From the NCBI RefSeq assembly GCF_000212375.1, contig NC_015501.1, positions 372,001-436,000 of the forward strand: a stretch of 64,000 nucleotides of DNA, read 5' to 3'. Of this stretch, positions 2,987 to 46,672 are shown piece by piece; positions within the stretch are counted from its first letter, which is position 1, and each line of letters opens with the position of its first letter. The translations under genes were made by a program, and so were the position numbers. The notes beneath the pieces are model-generated. The model did no database searches. It saw nothing but the letters and a program-made list of their open reading frames with translations, and was not told where the DNA came from. Origin of the DNA: Porphyromonas asaccharolytica DSM 20707 (GTDB lineage: Bacteria; Bacteroidota; Bacteroidia; Bacteroidales; Porphyromonadaceae).

Positions 2987-4906
2987 TTACTCTTGTGACA
3001 AGGCGAAGATCGTCTCATCACCACAGATGTTGCGCACCTTGATGCGTAGCGGGCGCTTACCGCTACTAGGGTAAGCTATAGAGCCATCCCATAGCTCTCT
3101 GGTATCTGTGCCATCGAGTGTTACCTGCCCCAACTTGTCAATGATGAGCTCGGTGTCGCTGTGCCACGGTCCATCGCTATGGGTGCAGTCTAGGCTTAGG
3201 TACTCAATTTGCTCCAGCCCCTCTTCACTCAGAGTGATAGGCGTGGGGCGTCTCTTACTATAGATCGGCTGCTGCAGGAGACGCTCGTTGTATTCGGTGA
3301 TCTTCCGCTCTACACGATCACTGTGAAAGCTGTCGATCACAATCTGATCTACCAACGAGCCATTGTTGCACTCTATGTGCCAGACCATCTCATCCTCTAG
3401 GGTGACATTGTCTAGAACCACCTTGAGATCACGTAGCTCTACTGCTATGGGGTAGGTATTCTCACTCTTGATGAATGTCTCTAGCTCCTCTCGATCTATC
3501 ATATCAATGTAGTAGATGATGACCTTCGAGACCGTATCAGGTAAATCGGGGAAAGCCTCCTTGAGGATACGATTCATCAGGGGAATGTCTAGGAGTCGTG
3601 TCGTGGAGTCCATAAGGTTGGGCAGGTAGACGGGGATCATACCCTCCTTGCTGTCGAGGATGCTACCCTCCCACATCTTGTCTAGAGCATCTTCGTTGCG
3701 AAGACCTGGAATCAGCTCGCGAAGCTTGGTCATCGTCTGCTGTGGGTTGCGGTATAGGCTCACCCCATCTTGTATCTCGAGTATCTGTGCCGTGGCACCG
3801 GGTATCTTACGCAGTCTGTCACGAGTGGTCTGTATGCTGTTGACCCCGACATCGGAGTGTATAAATCGTCGCCCCAGCTTGGTCGCGACAGCCGCCGTGA
3901 CCCCACTGCCCCCAAAGAAGTCTGCCACCAGCATCCCCTCATCACTACTAGCCTTGATGAAACGATCTAGTAAAGCTTCTGGTTTTTGTGTTGCATACTC
4001 AACTCTTTCTGTTGCAGCTTGATTTACGATCGCTAGTTCAAACCAATCTCTAGGGAGTGTACCTTCTGCGTCTTTTAAATATTGGCGATAAGTGTTTTCG
4101 CTTTCCTCTGTTGGATCGTTTCTTCCATCTTTGTATCGAAGTCTATAAGGCTCACCGTTTTGATCAAGGAACTTAAACTTCTTAAGCGTTACAGGGGAAT
4201 ACTCCTCCCAAATCGCACGATAATTAAAGACATAATCGTCGGATCTTGTATAGAAGTATATGCAGTCATGTTTGCGGTTATAATATCGTTTGGATGACTC
4301 TCTTTCTTTATAGCACCAAATAATCTCATTGCGAAAGTTCTCCTCTCCGAATATCTCGTCCATAAGGATCTTGACGTAGTGTCCGATGTGCCAGTCGAGG
4401 TGTACGTAAATAGAGGCGGTCGGACTCATAACACTCTTGATGGCGAGGAGGTTTTCGTACATCCAGTTGAGGTATAGCTCCTTGTCCCACACGTCACCAT
4501 ACATAGTCTCCTCAAAGGCACGTAGCTCCTCATTGTCTAGCTCTTTCTCAGCCTTGGCGACAGCCTCTGCTACCTTGGGGTTGCGACGCAGGTAGACCTT
4601 CTTGGCATAGTCGGCACCACTGGCGAAGGGAGGATCGATGTAGACCAGATCTACCTCGATGCCTTGATCCTTGAGGTAAGCACAGGCGGAGACGCACTCG
4701 CCACGCAAGATAAGGTTGTCGCTATGCGGGTCTTCGCCTAGCAGCTCTGTCTGCATCACATCGTAGAGAGGCATACCACGCTGCGTACGCTCGTAGATGA
4801 GGTCGCTATCACGATAACGCAGTATGCGCTGCGTGCGGGTGAAATTGTCCAGGACGGCTTGTCCCTCTAGTACGTTGGGAGTGTAAGGTATATATTTGAT
4901 AGCCAT
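2987..4906 (-). CDS. mod: Type III restriction-modification system, DNA methyltransferase subunit
   Basis: Site-specific adenine methyltransferase that recognises the target for the whole type III complex, 639 aa. The DPPY-type motif comes first (DLVYIDPPF, residues 87-94) and the AdoMet-binding motif later (ADFFGGSG, 328-335), the beta-class order usual for Mod proteins. The stretch between them (about 190-320) is the expected target recognition domain. Its DNA (4021-4380) is about 39% GC by hand count against 52-57% in sampled flanking lines, which suggests an exchanged module. The partner res lies upstream on the same strand, separated by a RAYT-type transposase gene and hairpin repeats. 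The usual mod-res order is reversed. The gene appears intact. Confidence 0.88.
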
Positions 4907-4953
4907 AGTCGGGATAAGGTATTAAATGGTGAGGTATTCAAACTCTGTTTTTA

Positions 4954-5273
4954 GTCCGACCCACAAGGGGTCGATCCATGGGCGACGTCTTGCACCCCCA
5001 GTCGTTCGGGCTGCGCCCTCCGACTGGGGGCTAGGATTCGTCTGACCTCCTGCGGAGGTCACAAACGACGTGTATCTGCAATATGGATCCTTCGTGTCAT
5101 CTCCTGCGGAGGTCACAATAGATGACAATGACGTTTCGCTCTTAGGCTTAGCGAGGAACGACCGCAGCGCGGTCGGACGGATCCTAGCCCCCAGTCGGAG
5201 GGCATAGCCCGAACGACTGGGGGAACCGATGGGTACGCCCCCCATAACGACCTCCCCTCGTGGGAGGTCGGAC
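4954..5273. repeat. REP-like hairpin cluster 1, downstream of tnpA copy 1
   Basis: Holds three hairpins with the layout GTCC followed by GACC...GGTC: 4954-4973 (+ strand), 5159-5178 (- strand) and 5248-5273 (- strand). The last begins directly after the tnpA stop codon. Two larger hairpins at 4995-5037 and 5181-5223 are 43-base inverted copies of each other with two mismatches. Two copies of CTCCTGCGGAGGTCACAA lie near 5047 and 5103. A 126-codon open frame crosses the region but looks like a by-product of the GC-rich repeats. Hairpins beside a Y1 transposase gene fit a REP/RAYT arrangement. Confidence 0.75.
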
Positions 5274-5723
5274 TTACGAGTATGATTCGTCTTGAGCTGC
5301 ATCTAATCCAAATATCATTGTTAACTCCTTCTCAAAGCCAAGCTTGCCGTGATGCTCTTTTTGCCTATCAATATAGGAGCTGACAGCTACAACATCCCTA
5401 CGGCTTACTGTACTCGCAAAGTACCCCTCTTGCCAAGCAAAAGATCCACGTGCGCTTACCTTTGTATTTAGGAACTTATTGGTCGACTTCTTGATCTCTC
5501 GGACAAAGTGTGAGACAACAAACTCTCCTGAATAAGCAACCAGTAAGATGTGGATATGATCCGTCATCCCATTTACATTTATAACAGAGTAGGAACCAGC
5601 TTTGGTACAAGCCTGTATGTAGGCATATAGGCGCTCCTGTATGTCAGGGCGGATAGACGGCTTCCGCTCCTTCGTTGAGAAGACGAGGTGATAATAAAGC
5701 GAGATATAATTATCTGTACCCAT
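5274..5723 (-). CDS. tnpA: IS200/RAYT-type Y1 transposase, copy 1
   Basis: HUH single-strand DNA transposase of the Y1 family, 149 aa, the usual size. The metal-binding His pair is in DHIHIL (His56, His58). The probable catalytic tyrosine is Tyr117 in SYIDRQKEHH. No tnpB partner is present, as in IS200 elements and REP-associated (RAYT) transposases. Its start codon lies five bases after the res stop. The hairpin cluster begins immediately at its own stop, so it sits like a passenger between res and mod. A paralogue at 15093-15530 aligns residue for residue through the core. Whether it moves itself or only the hairpins cannot be told here. Confidence 0.88.
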   Translation of the reverse strand: MGTDNYISLYYHLVFSTKERKPSIRPDIQERLYAYIQACTKAGSYSVINVNGMTDHIHILLVAYSGEFVVSHFVREIKKSTNKFLNTKVSARGSFAWQEGYFASTVSRRDVVAVSSYIDRQKEHHGKLGFEKELTMIFGLDAAQDESYS

Positions 5724-5728
5724 GAGGT

Positions 5729-8700
5729 CTACGATCGGAAGAACTCTTTTATCTTCTGCTCCACGAGGATATCCATCTGCTCTCGGTCTCTCTGCTCCTC
5801 AAGGTATAGGAAGTCCATCTCATAGGAGTCTGTTGTATCGCTGAGCGCCTTGTTGTTGAGCTGTAGGAAGTAGTCGGTGACAAATGCTTGCTTGTCCTGA
5901 AAGAGTGACGCGAAGCCAGCACCCTTGGTCTCGATGATGAGGATCTTGCAGATTGCTTTTGCCTCGTCACGCTGTATCATGAGAAAGTCGGGGTAGTAGC
6001 GACCGATGTACCGCCATGCACCACCCGTCGGCTCTCCTGTGGTGCTGCGCTTGGTGTAGCAGTTGATAGCAAACTCGGTCAGTAGGTCGTCACCATTGAA
6101 GTAGACCTCTAGTTGATGTCGCTGCGCCATCGGGAGGAGCGTATCTTTGAATATGTCTTCCTCTAGTTGGCTGTCAAAGTGGTACGGCAGGTAGTGGTAG
6201 CTATGGGTAGCACCTAGGTTGTGTGGTGTCTCCAGGCTGTCGGGGCTATTCTGAAGATTATCGATCAAGCTCTGTGGCGCTTTGTTTGCCTTGAGCGCCT
6301 CAATGGCAGCTCGCACCCCTTTGCTGAGGGTCTTACGTTGCTCTCCTCTGTCGAAGGCGATGATGGAGTCTACCTCTTCGACTGTGGGGTAGTACCTAGC
6401 TGTATCAGGTACTGTGATAGGTGAAGAGAGATGCTCTACACGTAGTAGGTGTGCTGTCTCGGGGACCACCTCTTCGGAGCTTTGGAGCGTGCGCTGCGGA
6501 ATAAAAGCTTTGCGCACCTCGCTTCTTATCGCCTGCTGGTCATAGCGTGGCGAGAGATAAGTGCCTTCGCCCTCTTGCTGTATCGTAATCTTGTGAAAGA
6601 GACTACGCAGCGACTCCTCATACGCTATTAGATCGCTATAAGTAAGGGTGCCAAAGCTCTCCTTCTGTATCTTCCCTATCCAAGCTCTGAAGGTGATGGG
6701 TAGTGTCGTCTCACCAGTCTGTAGCGAAGCGAGGGTGGAGCCCTTGTCTATGATCGCTCCCGTGATACTCTGTACGGTGATGAGTGTCTTGTCGCTCGGG
6801 ATCTGTATCTCATTAGACTCTAGTCGATCCTGAGTGTGTAGCTCCTCACAGATCACCTCTAGCTGATACTTGATGCGTAGCTGATAGTATCGGATAGGGT
6901 CCGTGAGCTGAGTCTCCTTGAGACGACTGTATCGATAACGTTCGATGAATCGAGAGTTAGGGCGTCGCTTGTTGAGCTGGTCTATGTCGGTGCGTTGCTG
7001 CTCTTTGAGCTGTGAGTTAAGGGTCTTAGCATTATCACGATTCATCCAGACGAGAGCAGTCTCGATTGTAGCATCGGTTACCTCTCGGAGACAGCGACAG
7101 CTGGTCTGTAGCACCATATTGCGAGGACACGCTCCTCGATGTGGTAAGATGACAGAGGTGAGGCTGCGACAGTCCCATCCCTCCTTGCCGATCTGTACGA
7201 GGAGTATGATCCTATATGAAGACATAGGAGTGTCTAGGGAGCTAAACTGATACTCGGCATCATCGGGCTGTGGATAGTTCTTATTTCCTCTGTGGTACTT
7301 GAGGATTGTCTTTGCTGGACTCCAACCAGCGGCAGTAACCAGCTCAGAGACGAGAGGGCATACTTCGGTTTCGAGCGTATCGATCTTGCCACAATAGATG
7401 GCTAGCTTGGCAGAGGTACCATCACTATATGTGGTGTCTCGGTACAGCTTTATAAACTCTTGCACCCCCTGTCGTATGATCTCCTCTCCTCCCTGGTCGG
7501 CATACTTGATCTGAGGTGACTTGAGGAAGTTGCCTACTCCCTCAATCAGGGGAAAGTGGTAGACAATATTGGAGATCGTCTTGAGCTTGACAGACTCAGA
7601 CTGATAGATGGTGATCTCCTCGGCTCGACTCAGATAGGGGGTCCCCGAAAACCCAAGAACGGTAGTTATCTGCCCCTCGGCGGCCCAGTGGGTGACGATC
7701 TGTCGGAGCTTGATCTCGCTATCAGAGGCGTGGTGAACCTCATCAATGAGGAGTGATAGGTGTGGTATCTGAGCGATGATCTGGCGTAACTCATTGTCGT
7801 TGCGTATTTGTGCAATATCTTCTGGAGTCAAAAGACTAGGGTCTTTCTCTCCTAGCTTGTCTAGCTTATCTAGTCTGTCGATAAGCTTCTCCGCATTGGT
7901 GATAGCAACGAGTCCACGGAGAGTATTGAGTGGTGCGTGGGCATTGATCTTCTGAGCGTTTTGGTTTTTAGTGCGATTGCTTTTGCTTGCAGAGCGACTC
8001 TCGTCTAGCACCTCAAACTTGACCTCTCGTGCTATCTGCTGCGCTACCTCAGGCGGTAGTATCCATGATGGGTCAAACTCCTGTATGCTCTTGAGACTAG
8101 GCATAATGGAGGACTTGAGACCAGAGGGTATAAGGATGAGAAAGTTCTGAGCGAAGGCTCCATTCTCTGGCTCTATATGCGAGAAGTATAGGTCTATGTA
8201 GATAAAGCAGGCCATCAGGAAGGTTTTGCCCGCTCCCATTGGTAAACTAAAGAGATAGTCGGCGTAGTCAATACCATAAAAGATGTTGCGGAGTGCCTGC
8301 GAGGCGTCTATCTCTTGGTGATGCTTTGCTAAGATCTGTTTGAACTGCTGTGGGAGAGCTTCTTCCTTTGAGCTAAGCACCTTGGCATAGTAGGCGAGAT
8401 TGTGTAGCGGGATATTTTCCTCTCTATAGAGTGAGTAGCAACCACTCTGACTGATATCTTCGTCGGTGAGGGTGCCGAAGGTGTGCTCGGTAAATATCTG
8501 ATATAGAGGCTTACTGTCATGTACCACTTTGAGATAAAGGTAGTGGCGTATAGCCTCTATCTGCGCATCACGTAGCTTGCCCCGCTCCAAGATGTACTGT
8601 AGAAATGGCTGACAAGGACAGTCGGGCTGTGCCCACCACGCATCGCTGGCCTCTTTGATTAATTCGTAAAACATATATCGCTCTAAACTCGATTGCCCAC

Positions 8701-8758
8701 CAAAGGTAGTAAAAAATATCGCTGTAGGATAGACGTCTGTGATGCCTTGCGGTATCAA
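5729..8758 (-). CDS. res: Type III restriction-modification system, restriction/helicase subunit
   Basis: ATP-dependent restriction subunit, 1009 aa, within the normal Res range. The helicase motifs are in order: Walker A MGAGKT (residues 174-179), DEAH-like LLIDEVHHASD (about 340) and motif III GFSGTPY (about 370). The C-terminal YYPDFLMI...ILIIETKG at about 930-960 matches a PD-(D/E)xK nuclease. It is predicted to work with Mod, cleaving unmethylated DNA after translocation. res comes first, then tnpA, then mod, all on the minus strand. The upstream gap carries a REP-like hairpin. No frameshift was found. Confidence 0.87.
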   Translation of the reverse strand: MIPQGITDVYPTAIFFTTFGGQSSLERYMFYELIKEASDAWWAQPDCPCQPFLQYILERGKLRDAQIEAIRHYLYLKVVHDSKPLYQIFTEHTFGTLTDEDISQSGCYSLYREENIPLHNLAYYAKVLSSKEEALPQQFKQILAKHHQEIDASQALRNIFYGIDYADYLFSLPMGAGKTFLMACFIYIDLYFSHIEPENGAFAQNFLILIPSGLKSSIMPSLKSIQEFDPSWILPPEVAQQIAREVKFEVLDESRSASKSNRTKNQNAQKINAHAPLNTLRGLVAITNAEKLIDRLDKLDKLGEKDPSLLTPEDIAQIRNDNELRQIIAQIPHLSLLIDEVHHASDSEIKLRQIVTHWAAEGQITTVLGFSGTPYLSRAEEITIYQSESVKLKTISNIVYHFPLIEGVGNFLKSPQIKYADQGGEEIIRQGVQEFIKLYRDTTYSDGTSAKLAIYCGKIDTLETEVCPLVSELVTAAGWSPAKTILKYHRGNKNYPQPDDAEYQFSSLDTPMSSYRIILLVQIGKEGWDCRSLTSVILPHRGACPRNMVLQTSCRCLREVTDATIETALVWMNRDNAKTLNSQLKEQQRTDIDQLNKRRPNSRFIERYRYSRLKETQLTDPIRYYQLRIKYQLEVICEELHTQDRLESNEIQIPSDKTLITVQSITGAIIDKGSTLASLQTGETTLPITFRAWIGKIQKESFGTLTYSDLIAYEESLRSLFHKITIQQEGEGTYLSPRYDQQAIRSEVRKAFIPQRTLQSSEEVVPETAHLLRVEHLSSPITVPDTARYYPTVEEVDSIIAFDRGEQRKTLSKGVRAAIEALKANKAPQSLIDNLQNSPDSLETPHNLGATHSYHYLPYHFDSQLEEDIFKDTLLPMAQRHQLEVYFNGDDLLTEFAINCYTKRSTTGEPTGGAWRYIGRYYPDFLMIQRDEAKAICKILIIETKGAGFASLFQDKQAFVTDYFLQLNNKALSDTTDSYEMDFLYLEEQRDREQMDILVEQKIKEFFRS

Positions 8759-8778: not shown

Positions 8779-8870
8779 CGACCGCAAGCGGTCGGACGGG
8801 TCATAGCCCCTAGTCGGATGGTTCAGACCGAACGACTGAGGAATATGAGGGGTACGCCCCGCATGACGAC
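8779..8870. repeat. REP-like hairpin cluster 2, upstream of res
   Basis: The 437-bp gap between res and recJ begins with a hairpin at 8779-8797 whose minus strand reads GTCCGACCGCTTGCGGTCG. It is followed by a degraded larger hairpin at about 8803-8846 (CCCCTAGTCGG... CCGAACGACTGAGG) and a fragment GACGACCTCCCC near 8864. These are the same modules as around both tnpA genes. The rest, 8880-9195, shows only a small TGCGAC/GTCGCA hairpin near 9025. I see no convincing promoter box for recJ there. Confidence 0.65.
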
Positions 8871-9195
8871 CTCCCCAGGGGGCTGAAGTTCTAAAAACTC
8901 TCTTTCGTCTTCGAGGGTGTGGTAAAGACTTCAACAATCTAATGCGACTCTCCTGAAATGTGTGGCGACGGCGTACTCTATCTCAAGATTATTTTGTACA
9001 TTTACAGAGCCTAAAATGCGGAGGTGCGACCTTGTCGCAAGCTTCGCCCTAGGTGCTTACAATATAATGCGCTAGTAATGAGCTGTAAATCGTTTTCTAC
9101 CCAGGTTGTCCAGACCGCACACATAGCAGGTCAGGAGCCTTGGTCTGCTCCTAGCCTACCCACTCTCCCTATGACAAAAAAAATAAAACAATATA

Positions 9196-14054: not shown

Positions 14055-14169
14055 CGGCTAGTCCGACCCACAAGGGGTCGATCTTCTAGCACGTTCACCT
14101 AACCATCGGTCGTTCGGGGCTTTTGCCCCTCCGACCGACGGCTACGAAACGTCCGACCGCAAGCAGTCG
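14055..14169. repeat. REP-like hairpin cluster 3
   Basis: Two GTCC-led hairpins lie at 14061-14080 and 14151-14169. Between them, at 14103-14141, is a larger hairpin CATCGGTCGTTCGGGG... CCCCTCCGACCGACGG. The stretch 14055-14147 is an inverted copy (roughly 85-90% by eye) of 14953-15041. The two therefore face each other across the 67-bp array. No coding potential is seen. Confidence 0.72.
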
Positions 14170-14189: not shown

Positions 14190-14320
14190 CTGGACGTGTA
14201 ATTGTTGTTAGGATGCACCGACGAGTAACTATTGTAGGAACGCATGGTGAGTATCTAGTGGGAGGGCGTCCGTCCCAGTTAAATCACGGACGCTGTAATC
14301 TTTGACATCACGACCGTCCT
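14190..14320. repeat. Dispersed repeat copy next to the 67-bp array
   Basis: The order GACGAGTAAC, TTGTAGG, ACGC, CGTCCGTCC, GTTAAA-TCAC, ACGCTGTAATCTTTGA matches 39842-39916 with substitutions, so it belongs to the dispersed family also seen at 41575-41715. It leads directly into the 67-bp tandem array. At the 39.8-kb copy, a single 67-bp-like unit likewise follows the element. Confidence 0.65.
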
Positions 14321-14886
14321 CCGACTCGACACTATCTGTGCGTTCCTACACTGGTTATACGTCGGCTGGTTCGACAATGGACGCCCTCCGACTCGACACT
14401 ATCTGTGCGTTCCTACACTGGTTATACGTCGGCTGGTTTGACAATGGACGCCCTCCGACTCGACACTTTCGTGCGTTTCCTACACCGGTTATACGTCAGC
14501 TAGTTCGACAATGAACGCCCTCTGACTCGACACTATCTGTGCGTTCCTACACTGGTTATACGTTGGCTGGTTCGACAACAGACGCCCTCCGACTCGACAC
14601 TTCCGTGCGTTTCCTACACTGGTTATACGTCGGCTGGTTCGACAACAGACGCCCTCTGACTCGACACTATCTGTGCATTCCTACACTGGTTATACGTCGG
14701 CTGGTTCGACAACAGACGCCCTCTGACTCGACACTATCTGTGCATTCCTACACTGGTTATACGTCGGCTGGTTCGACAATGGACGCCCTCCGACTCGACA
14801 CTTCCGTGCGTTTCCTACACCGGTTATACGTCGGCTGGTTCGACAATGGACGCCCTCCGACTCGACACTATCTGTGCGCCCCTACA
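14312..14886. repeat. 67-bp tandem repeat array, about 8.5 units
   Basis: The marker GACTCGAC recurs at 14323, 14390, 14457, 14524, 14591, 14658, 14725, 14792 and 14859, exactly 67 bases apart. Each unit runs GACTCGACACT, a variable few bases, GTGCG, TCCTACACTGGTTATACGTC, GGCTGG, TTCGACAA, then GGACGCCCTC. Units differ by a few substitutions. Because 67 is not a multiple of three and the + strand units lack stops, open frames of 70 and 175 codons arise by chance. They are not credible genes. The whole unit is conserved, so this is not a CRISPR array. Confidence 0.9.
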
Positions 14887-14927: not shown

Positions 14928-15088
14928 GGACCTCGTGAGAGGTCCGACGCATCGTAGCCGTCGGTCGGAGGGGTCACAGCCCCGAACGACCGATGGAAAG
15001 GCGGACGTGCTAGAAGATCGACCCCTTGTGGGTCGGACTAGGCGAAGGACTACAGCCCCAGTCTGACCTCCCCTCGTGGAAGCTAACG
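14928..15088. repeat. REP-like hairpin cluster 4, downstream of tnpA copy 2
   Basis: Contains GGACCTCGTGAGAGGTCC (14928-14945), the larger hairpin at 14957-14996, a GTCC hairpin on the minus strand at 15019-15038 and a degraded copy of the stop-codon-proximal hairpin at 15064-15080. The segment 14953-15041 is the inverted partner of cluster 3. The cluster lies just beyond the tnpA stop, mirroring the arrangement at the first tnpA gene. Confidence 0.72.
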
Positions 15089-15092
15089 CCTA

Positions 15093-15530
15093 TCAGAGCT
15101 CATCTTCATTTAGTCTGAAGATGAGCTCTAGTTCTTGTGCAATATCAAACTTGCGGTGATGTTCTTGCTGCATTTCAATGTACCTGCATATAGCTGCAAC
15201 ATCTCGCTTGCTAACCGTACTAACAAAGTACCCATCTTGCCAAGCAAAAGAGCCATTCATACCCATCGCAGTATTGAGAAACTTGTTTGTGGACTTCTTT
15301 ATCTCTCTTACGAAGTTGGAGATGACAAAGTCCCCTGAGTAAGCAATCAATAGTATGTGGATATGATCGCTCATGCCATTTACCTTGATTATGGAGTGAC
15401 TCTTAGACTTCGAGCAATGTTGTAGATAGGCGTATAGTCTCGGCTGGACATTAGGGGTGAGTAAAGGCTTTCTCCCCTTCGTTGAGAATACAATGTGATA
15501 ATACAGAGCTGTGTAGTTACCTACATACAT
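15093..15530 (-). CDS. tnpA: IS200/RAYT-type Y1 transposase, copy 2
   Basis: 145-aa Y1 HUH transposase. His56 and His58 in DHIHIL and Tyr117 in RYIEMQQEHH occupy the same positions as in the copy at 5274-5723. The two proteins share long blocks such as FVREIKKSTNKFLNT but differ at many sites, so they are diverged paralogues rather than a recent duplication. The start lies eleven bases after the mfd stop and the gene may ride on mfd transcription. No tnpB is present. The hairpin cluster follows at its 3' side. Confidence 0.88.
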   Translation of the reverse strand: MYVGNYTALYYHIVFSTKGRKPLLTPNVQPRLYAYLQHCSKSKSHSIIKVNGMSDHIHILLIAYSGDFVISNFVREIKKSTNKFLNTAMGMNGSFAWQDGYFVSTVSKRDVAAICRYIEMQQEHHRKFDIAQELELIFRLNEDEL

Positions 15531-39841: not shown

Positions 39842-40030
39842 AGACGAATAACCCTTTGTAGGGACGCACGGCTCGTGCGTCCGTCCTCGTTAAAATCACA
39901 ACGCTGTAACCTTTGATACAACGGACGCACGAGCCGTGCGTCCCTACAAAGGGTTACACGTATCATCGTTACTCGTCTCGTTTTGACGGGGACGGACGCC
40001 CTCCGACTCGACACTTTCGTGCGTCCTTAC
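39842..40030. repeat. Dispersed inverted-repeat element with one 67-bp-like unit
   Basis: Two 36-base arms, 39849-39884 and 39921-39956, are perfect reverse complements with a 36-base spacer (AACGCTGTAACCTTTGAT part). Each arm also contains its own palindrome GGACGCACG...CGTGCGTCC. The tail 39993-40030 (GGACGCCCTCCGACTCGACA, then CTTTCGTGCGT) is a single unit of the type found in the 14.3-14.9 kb array. Together with the terminator at 40044-40096 this fills the 340-bp recR-tnaA gap. Confidence 0.82.
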
Positions 40031-41574: not shown

Positions 41575-43092
<1,518 letters not shown>

Positions 43093-46037: not shown

Positions 46038-46672
46038 ATCGAGTAGGTCGGGAAACGAAAGTTTTCTGACCTACTTTCGTTTCCTTCCCTCTCACACCAC
46101 CGTACGTGCCGTTCGGCATACGGCGGTTTAATTCGTTTTCAAAGACTTTCTAATCATGTTTGATTAGCTTCATCTTCCGTCTTTCTTAATTTCCGCTTCC
46201 GATGGATACCTGTTTAGCTCTATGTGGTCGATCGCATTGACGTTTTGACCGTTGCCACTCGTCAGCAATGTACATCGGAACATACATTCTTGATTGACGT
46301 TACGAATTATTCGGTCCTTCGCCTTGTTCTGCGCGAGAACGGCTACTTCGACCTCTGCTGACTCCTCGACATTCGTTGTTACTATCCTATAGGACTGCCG
46401 AGGCCTCGCGGGATAAGTCATACATCTTTCATCGTTTACCTGCCTAATTTACGCATCAAGGTTACGGTTGCCTTTTGGAACTTCACTGTCCTTGGCCAGC
46501 TTGTCCACTTGATACGCCTTAGTATTAGGTTTCTGTTCGTCAGGCCACGAATTCGCTATTGCTTCTTCTCTCCCAAGGGTCACCCCTTGAAACTTGCAAG
46601 TCGCTATGGGGTTCGTTGGCAACTGCGCCCCGTGTGGACTTTCACCACAGATGTATAACATGCCCGTCATAC
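46038..46672 (-). mobile_element. ORF-less group IIC intron
   Basis: About 635 nt on the minus strand. The 5' end is GTATGACGGGCATG. Domain V is clear at about 46096-46127: CCGCCGTATGCC, loop GAAC, GGCACGTACGG and TGG, with catalytic triad CGC and the two-base CG bulge. Domain VI and the 3' end CCTACTCGAT follow. The domain III-IV junction carries GTCAGCAGAGGTCGAAGTAG and GAAGGACCG. The layout resembles the Oceanobacillus iheyensis IIC intron as I remember it. Where the reverse transcriptase gene should be, only about 190 nt remain. It sits directly behind the terminator stem at 46673-46718, as IIC introns do. Frames of 83 and 79 codons inside it are not genes. Confidence 0.85.

Follow-up and report, generated by a model that had tools for sequence, protein, structure and literature searches.

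Single-copy transposases of apparent IS200 type probably mobilize, in trans, a family of dispersed REPIN-like elements in Porphyromonas asaccharolytica and its relatives. The elements are built from two inverted arms of three hairpins each, and the long hairpin of an arm typically carries an NTAG tag of the kind known from REP sequences. The stretch of 64,000 nucleotides that was analyzed (the window) is part of a single-contig genome of 2,186,370 bases, labeled G000. Below, G-numbers denote genomes of a 38-genome family set, in which G023 is P. uenonis, and L-numbers denote single loci.

Two lone Y1 transposase genes

The initial annotation had described two Y1 transposase genes that lack tnpB. 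Both open reading frames proved to be real, and the adjoining reading frames in the list include no tnpB.

5274..5723, minus strand: tnpA1, a Y1/HUH transposase of 149 amino acids with DHIH, WQ and YIDRQKEHH (ORF list, profile search)
15093..15530, minus strand: tnpA2, 145 amino acids, with YIEMQQEHH; 62-64% identical to tnpA1

These were the only PF01797 matches in the whole 2.186 Mb genome (E ≤ 0.001), and the two genes have diverged from each other to a dN of 0.25 with dS near saturation. Their neighbors, named from sequence, we take to be a type III-like res and mod around tnpA1 and mfd beside tnpA2, and a dnaK gene at another site was named in the same way. The tnpA1 gene starts 5 nt past the end of res, with res on one side and mod on the other, while tnpA2 starts 11 nt past the end of mfd. 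Together, the type III-like res and mod (window 2987-8758) enclose tnpA1 and a 320-nt composite of hairpins. The ancestral, empty locus of tnpA1 was not found because mod is without close relatives elsewhere in the family: in the other 37 genomes the best match was 34% identical over part of the protein.

In three species mfd is followed by tnpA2 or what is left of it, with an ortholog that is 92% identical in P. uenonis and a 30-codon remnant in G025. Comparison of tnpA2 with the P. uenonis ortholog gave 11 synonymous and 11 non-synonymous changes and a dN/dS of 0.24, against 0.04 for mfd in the same comparison. The tnpA2 gene is under purifying selection and is kept less strictly than mfd.

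The transposases by sequence and fold

The same annotation had likened the proteins to RAYTs, a membership that the profile searches contradict. The NCBIfam IS200 model NF033573 scored the two TnpAs at 72.9 and 78.4 bits, above its cut-off of 55, and the RAYT model NF047646 scored them at 36.4 and 39.3 bits, short of its cut-off of 80; moreover, the YxxxNP motif occurs in none of the 80 relatives described below. The nearest solved structures by sequence were the IS608 and ISDra2 transposases (9.6e-10 and 4.9e-8), and no RAYT structure appeared among such matches up to an E-value of 1. In a Foldseek comparison of an AlphaFold model (mean pLDDT 85.8) with known folds, ISDra2 ranked first, IS608 followed closely, and the RAYT structure from E. 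coli, 4er8, came thirtieth (2.9e-5). The DHIH, WQ and Y..Q..HH motifs, the length of ~148 amino acids and the low copy number all match the subclass 1.2 signature of Quentin et al. 2018. Judged by sequence, the window TnpAs are IS200-like proteins with this signature, not RAYTs.

For subclass 1.2, the table in PMC6006769 enters ‘no’ for REPs, and the text there describes the subclass as generally without typical IS200 ends. The table entry does not hold here, where tagged hairpins flank the genes of relatives. The same table gives WQ for subclasses 1.2 and the REP-linked 2.4-2.7 and not for the IS200 subclass 1.1; it gives W[EQ] for 2.1, a subclass without REPs, and WE for 2.2, to which E. coli TnpA-REP belongs. 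The retained WQ may thus be a weak clue toward the REP-linked subclasses, its conservation being partly built in because the relatives were seeded with SFAWQ[DEA]GY. In their genomic setting, the genes share several traits with RAYT genes: on their flanks lie tagged hairpins of which the genome has further copies, they are low in copy (two Y1 genes), and tnpA2 or its remnant has kept an orthologous position after mfd in three species. Two diverged single genes were found, whereas an insertion sequence is typically present in several copies, each bounded by a defined left and right end.

Hairpins and arms inside the window

GTCC hairpins were sought with the pattern GTCCGACC-N3-16-GGTC, which gave six exact matches in the window where 0.11 were expected; 0 of 100 shuffles reached six. 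Seven such hairpins had been listed earlier, and six of them are the exact matches, while the seventh (14151-14168) is an imperfect hairpin. The genome-wide count was 43, against 3 for the reversed pattern. The hairpins do lie on the 3′ side of both genes, as had been claimed. One begins directly past the stop of tnpA1, and behind tnpA2 a degenerate hairpin comes first, 5 nt past the stop, and a GTCC hairpin second, 54 nt past it. The GTCC hairpins form the inner and outer members of an arm made of three hairpins (h1, h2, h3), in which the longest hairpin is NTAG-tagged on the opposite strand.

4954..5273, unstranded: composite of two arms with TAG tags inward, beginning directly past the tnpA1 stop
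4954..4972, plus strand: h1 of arm A, GTCC + GACCC..GGGTC (pattern search)
4995..5034, minus strand: long hairpin h2 (4995-5030) with CTAG tag (5031-5034)
5160..5178, minus strand: h3-type hairpin, GTCC + GACCGCGCTGCGGTC (pattern search)
5184..5223, plus strand: long hairpin h2 (5188-5223) with CTAG tag (5184-5187)
5249..5273, minus strand: h1 of arm B, directly past the tnpA1 stop codon (pattern search)
8780..8881, minus strand: degenerate arm upstream of res, with h3 8780-8797, h2 8807-8841 and an h1 remnant 8868-8881
14061..14168, plus strand: arm with h1 14061-14079, h2 14103-14144 (GTAG on the minus strand) and imperfect h3 14151-14168
14928..15038, minus strand: arm downstream of tnpA2 with h3 14928-14945, h2 14955-14996 (GTAG on the plus strand) and h1 15020-15038
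15065..15087, minus strand: degenerate hairpin of h1 type, lying between the stop of tnpA2 and its downstream arm

The arms at 14061-14168 and 14928-15038 have their tags inward, as in the tnpA1 composite, and the h3 at 14928-14945 has a T run on the minus strand. No arm was found on the upstream side of tnpA2, and Rfam gave no match at the arms at gathering thresholds.

Other repeats were also seen in the window. A second GTAG hairpin family (GTAGGGACGCACG..CGTGCGTCC), termed GGACGC here, occupies 39858-39947, 41589-41690 and 14234-14886; it forms inverted, tag-outward pairs of ~90-100 nt (seven matches against 0.01 expected) and, beside tnpA2, a tandem array at 14318-14886 with a 67-nt period and 8.5 copies. 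The GGACGC hairpins were considered as a candidate for the true partner of tnpA2, but G024 and G021, two genomes without Y1, also match that stretch, with many matches among those listed. A group II intron RNA was located at 46038-46589 on the minus strand by three Rfam matches. A further dispersed repeat of ~145 nt, found at L035 and in G000, has dozens of G000 copies among the matches listed.

Anatomy of the REPIN-like element

Each arm is ~110 nt long. From h1 (GTCC + GACCC..GGGTC or longer) a spacer leads to the long h2, which contains an internal loop; CTAN comes next, and a short linker separates it from the short h3. The full element of ~245 nt (243-251) consists of two inverted arms joined at h1, so that it reads, with tags outward, h3, NTAG-h2, spacer, h1, then h1, spacer, h2-CTAN, h3. 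Nineteen full copies from the collected loci of four genomes were aligned (10 from G000, 5 from G025, 3 from G023 and 1 from G021). Both arms have GTCC in front of h1, and arm B alone has it in front of h3 as well; the tag before h2, read from outside, is mostly GTAG or ATAG, with TTAG in one copy and the arm B tag lost in one. The constancy of GTCC and TAG in the 19 copies is partly built in because the search pattern requires GTCC at both h1 and h3 as well as TAG in arm A.

The consensus fold retains h1, h2 and h3, and its outer TAG ends pair across the element. Two-sided changes were seen in 4 of the 71 predicted pairs of this fold, but they run along two subfamilies and so represent few events. 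The full copies show what characterizes a REPIN, namely two inverted tagged hairpins, outward tags and a dispersed distribution. The internal loop of h2 is claimed for the Porphyromonas fold alone, because 31 of 54 long TAG hairpins were scored as having no inner stem under the rules used.

The element differs in presence at an orthologous site. A full copy lies upstream of dnaK in P. uenonis and is absent from the matching stretch in G000, G025 and G024; in G021 the contig ends there, and no element is present in the 240 nt before the shared flank. The element ends and target are not base-exact at this site, which is embedded in a mosaic of other repeats. Full elements often sit inside shared repeats of 400-860 nt (L003, L005, L011, L012 and the G025 loci L026 and L032-L041), and the REPIN-like unit is therefore part of larger mosaics.

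Element abundance and the presence of tnpA

The relationship between the hairpins and tnpA was studied across the 38 family genomes using the TAG-hairpin pattern TAGCCNNNGGT-N4-34-ACCNNNGG, with raw matches compared with a control. Y1 genes over the cut-off are present in seven of the 38. In the six genomes whose TnpA is at least 40% identical (G000 included), 14-53 raw TAG matches were counted, and in the other 32 at most 6, with no Y1-free genome above that number. The raw counts for G000, G023, G033, G037, G038 and G044 were 20, 14, 32, 14, 25 and 53, with controls of 0, 0, 4, 1, 2 and 4, and include a few chance matches, for example 3 of the 14 in G023. G016, whose TnpA is 34% identical, gave 2 TAG matches against a control of 0 and 4 GTCC matches against a control of 17. 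At its locus L137, CCCAGGGT..ACCCTGGG hairpins with an internal GTAG flank the TnpA gene, neither pattern being in clear excess.

GTCC matches numbered 43 in G000, 28 in G023 and 89 in P. somerae (control 1). The counts for G033, G038 and FC4 were 11, 8 and 5 (control 1 each), and the six matches listed for G033 do not resemble the Porphyromonas hairpin family. A few true GTCC copies occur in G021, G024 and G015, which have no Y1, and G025 has 38 matches together with tnpA remnants only, both genes being broken. REPs usually exceed 100 copies per genome (PMC2817692), a figure that neither the 43 GTCC and 20 TAG matches of G000 nor the 89 GTCC matches of P. somerae attain.

The expectation that hairpin number would follow tnpA was borne out in that the hairpins are rare where tnpA is absent, and it failed for G025. 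The elements outlast the gene, because in G025 they remain numerous while both tnpAs are broken. Indeed, composites of the tnpA1 type occur at two places in G025, with other neighbors and without an intact tnpA; the end stretch of tnpA1 is still attached at one and absent at the other. Taken as counts uncorrected for kinship, the data support a tie between element abundance and tnpA across the family.

Arms flank the gene elsewhere, too. In P. somerae (L053), a TnpA relative of 55% identity is encoded between two inverted arms. Relatives that are 41-45% identical were found in Porphyromonadaceae bacterium FC4 (L060/L132), G033 and G038, where the three-hairpin arm is written in other letters and the long hairpin keeps NTAG. 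Arms are present on both sides in four of these five genes (L132, L134, L135 and L139); at the fifth, L138, close to a contig start, hairpins lie 5′ of the gene and none within 400 nt on the 3′ side. In both P. somerae and FC4, tnpA sits between outward-tagged arms. The proposal of a lone Y1 gene with its own dispersed hairpin family therefore stands, with an abundance that largely tracks the gene and with arms around the gene in P. somerae and three further genomes.

Relatives in other phyla

One genome per species was scanned, for 84,980 species, with the seeds SFAWQ[DEA]GY and [LI]Y[YI]H[IL]VF[SH][TV], and the best 80 of 233 relatives, which come from many phyla, were analyzed. Y..Q..HH is present in 77 and DHUH in 74 of the 80, and every one of them is matched by the IS200 model at E ≤ 0.001, with 60 matched at the same E-value by the RAYT model as well.

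Within 600 nt of tnpA, the density of non-coding hairpins (minimum stem 6) was 6.1 per kb, compared with 2.1 per kb beyond 1500 nt. The commonest tetranucleotides 5′ of hairpins near tnpA were GTAG, TTAG and ATAG (ranks 1-3), and TAG preceded 5.1% of hairpins near the gene versus 0.7% far from it (7.7% versus 2.3% for non-coding hairpins alone). A TAG hairpin lay within 700 nt at 40 of the 80 loci, mostly inverted around the gene, against ~12% for other genes at the same loci; some of these 40 are weak by eye or belong to the second, GGACGC family (P. uenonis, L052), and the remaining 40 relatives have no TAG hairpin within that distance. Of the 73 loci that also contain other testable ORFs, 36 had a TAG hairpin at ≤700 nt, whereas the number in 20,000 control draws averaged 8.9 and never exceeded 17. 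Upstream tags were on the top strand in 32 cases and on the bottom in 15, and downstream tags on the bottom strand in 36 and on the top in 7; the hairpins are therefore inverted around the gene with their tags outward. The same script, applied to E. coli rayT, returned a GTAG REP downstream and none upstream. Genome-wide, 12 of 53 genomes had at least 10 matches and at least three times the reversed control, up to 278 versus 9. The 41 genomes below that threshold may use other letters or may have no such family.

Candidate guide sequences and other readings

In the initial annotation, GTCC was the guide. In that case the short h1 and h3 would be the REPs and the long h2 would be cargo or a spacer. 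GTCC does precede h1 in both arms as well as h3 in arm B, it recurs in P. somerae, and h1 is the hairpin nearest to the tnpA stop codon in several loci. GTCC-GATCCC..GGGATC is also the first hairpin after the gene at L139 (TnpA 43% identical), and at L134 GTCC stands before a hairpin on the opposite strand. Guides vary between elements of the IS200/IS605 group, so a clade-specific guide would be conceivable. Those cases stand, but across the 80 loci GTCC preceded 12 of 1756 hairpins near tnpA (0.7%) and 23 of 5952 far from it (0.4%), a 1.7-fold excess against ~4-, ~8- and ~11-fold for GTAG, TTAG and ATAG. L132, L137 and L138 have no GTCC hairpin, and the two matches at L135 are not its h1, GTCC before h1 being absent in both L132 and L135. 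The constancy of GTCC in the 19 copies is built into the search pattern, and a TAG tag with a long hairpin is the REP form described in PMC6006769 and PMC8266576. GTCC as guide is accordingly disfavored, and we regard it as rather unlikely.

TnpA-REP is described in PMC8266576 as binding single-stranded REPs, needing the GTAG tag and cutting at CT; according to the same source, the two final letters of the tag have the greatest effect in one system, and in E. coli the stem must contain a bulge. Because TAG is the constant part of the tag here and h2 has an internal loop in the Porphyromonas fold, NTAG-h2 would be the likelier substrate, and the GTCC hairpins h1 and h3 could be accessory or termination hairpins.

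In another reading, an unrelated DDE transposase would move the elements as MITEs, their ends serving as terminal inverted repeats and tnpA being a bystander. Both ends do contain a common stretch of ~20 nt in inverted orientation, GGTCSGACGNATCNTAGCC, on whose outer side a hairpin lies, and MITEs are on record in P. gingivalis (PMC4596501). Against this, no target duplication was evident by eye in the 12-nt flanks of the 19 copies, the abundance of TAG hairpins tracks tnpA, and differently lettered arms flank tnpA in each lineage, which makes a MITE origin improbable.

A role of the arms as RNA or termination signals (bidirectional terminators), spread by recombination and linked to tnpA only secondarily, is very unlikely. 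A T run follows the h3 beside tnpA2, a hairpin that is scored as a terminator, and A or T runs end some elements; terminator-like sites in the tnpA2-arm stretch numbered 2, not above the 1.3 seen in shuffles. Such a role leaves unexplained the co-occurrence with tnpA, the outward TAG tags and the similar layout in other phyla. Ordinary IS200 copies, whose proper left and right ends and internal deletion products would be the hairpins seen here, would agree with the IS200 model score, with IS608 and ISDra2 as nearest by sequence and among the best by fold, and with the P. somerae and FC4 genes between arms, but this is scarcely credible given diverged single copies (dN 0.25, dS near saturation), a tnpA2 or remnant that stays after mfd in three species with no upstream arm, and arms that are inverted where IS200/IS605 ends read in the same direction.

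Probable mobilization in trans and comparison with known systems

If, as we favor, the TnpAs mobilize the REPIN-like elements in trans, the enzyme would bind folded h2 on single-stranded DNA, for example the lagging-strand template, by analogy with TnpA-REP and IS608. The TAG tag would then guide a cut at a nearby short site, made by the tyrosine of the Y..Q..HH motif, and the element would be excised and re-inserted between its two outward tags. The tnpA gene, lying beside or between arms, would no longer be moved with them as a unit.

Several features recall the TnpA-REP/RAYT systems, such as E. coli rayT and the Pseudomonas REPINs: a lone low-copy Y1 gene, dispersed tagged hairpins in inverted pairs, hairpins around the gene, and a long hairpin that combines an internal loop with a tag ending in TAG. 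Unlike RAYTs, the proteins here have YxxxQxxHH in place of YxxxNP and miss the RAYT cut-off; unlike REPs, the hairpins occur in tens of copies, not hundreds, vary in the first base of the tag and come with two extra short hairpins per arm. The protein family, the fold and the best PDB matches are those of IS200/IS605 TnpAs (IS608, ISDra2), whereas tnpB and a multi-copy IS unit are lacking and the arms are inverted. Subclass 1.2 (PMC6006769) is matched in DHIH, WQ, YIxxQxxHH, ~148 amino acids, low copy number and occurrence in Bacteroidetes; in contrast to the table given there, hairpin partners are present here and the signature occurs in many more phyla.

A tyrosine transposase gene between inverted repeats that are repeated elsewhere is also the design of the TIRtrons and TIRYT (Di Nocera 2013, PMC3733652), although TIRYTs are described there as RAYT-like. 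CGTC repeats are reported in Bacteroidetes in the same source, which places no transposase beside them in its account, and the words GTCC and Porphyromonas are absent from its main text. No Porphyromonas REPs or REP partners of subclass 1.2 were found in open-access titles and the starts of abstracts, a search that covered few subscription papers and no bioRxiv; ‘Porphyromonas’ and ‘REP-associated tyrosine transposase’ co-occur in the text of one metagenome study (PMC10878065).

The system looks as if it works like REP/RAYT, with an enzyme that is not a RAYT. We give even chances to a broader proposal, that a second lineage of REP-associated transposases is made up of IS200-type, subclass 1.2-like TnpAs, each with its own NTAG hairpin family arranged as REPINs, in Bacteroidota, Planctomycetota, Verrucomicrobiota, Armatimonadota, Acidobacteriota and others. 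With their IS200 motif and RAYT-like tag, they could represent an intermediate between IS200/IS605 and RAYT or a second, independent domestication. Among transposases that bacteria have tamed, REP/RAYT is the best known example. If the same is true of an IS200 branch, the passage from selfish transposon to resident partner would have happened twice, or by way of this group, and the small enzyme and its substrate would form a pair that is testable in vitro.
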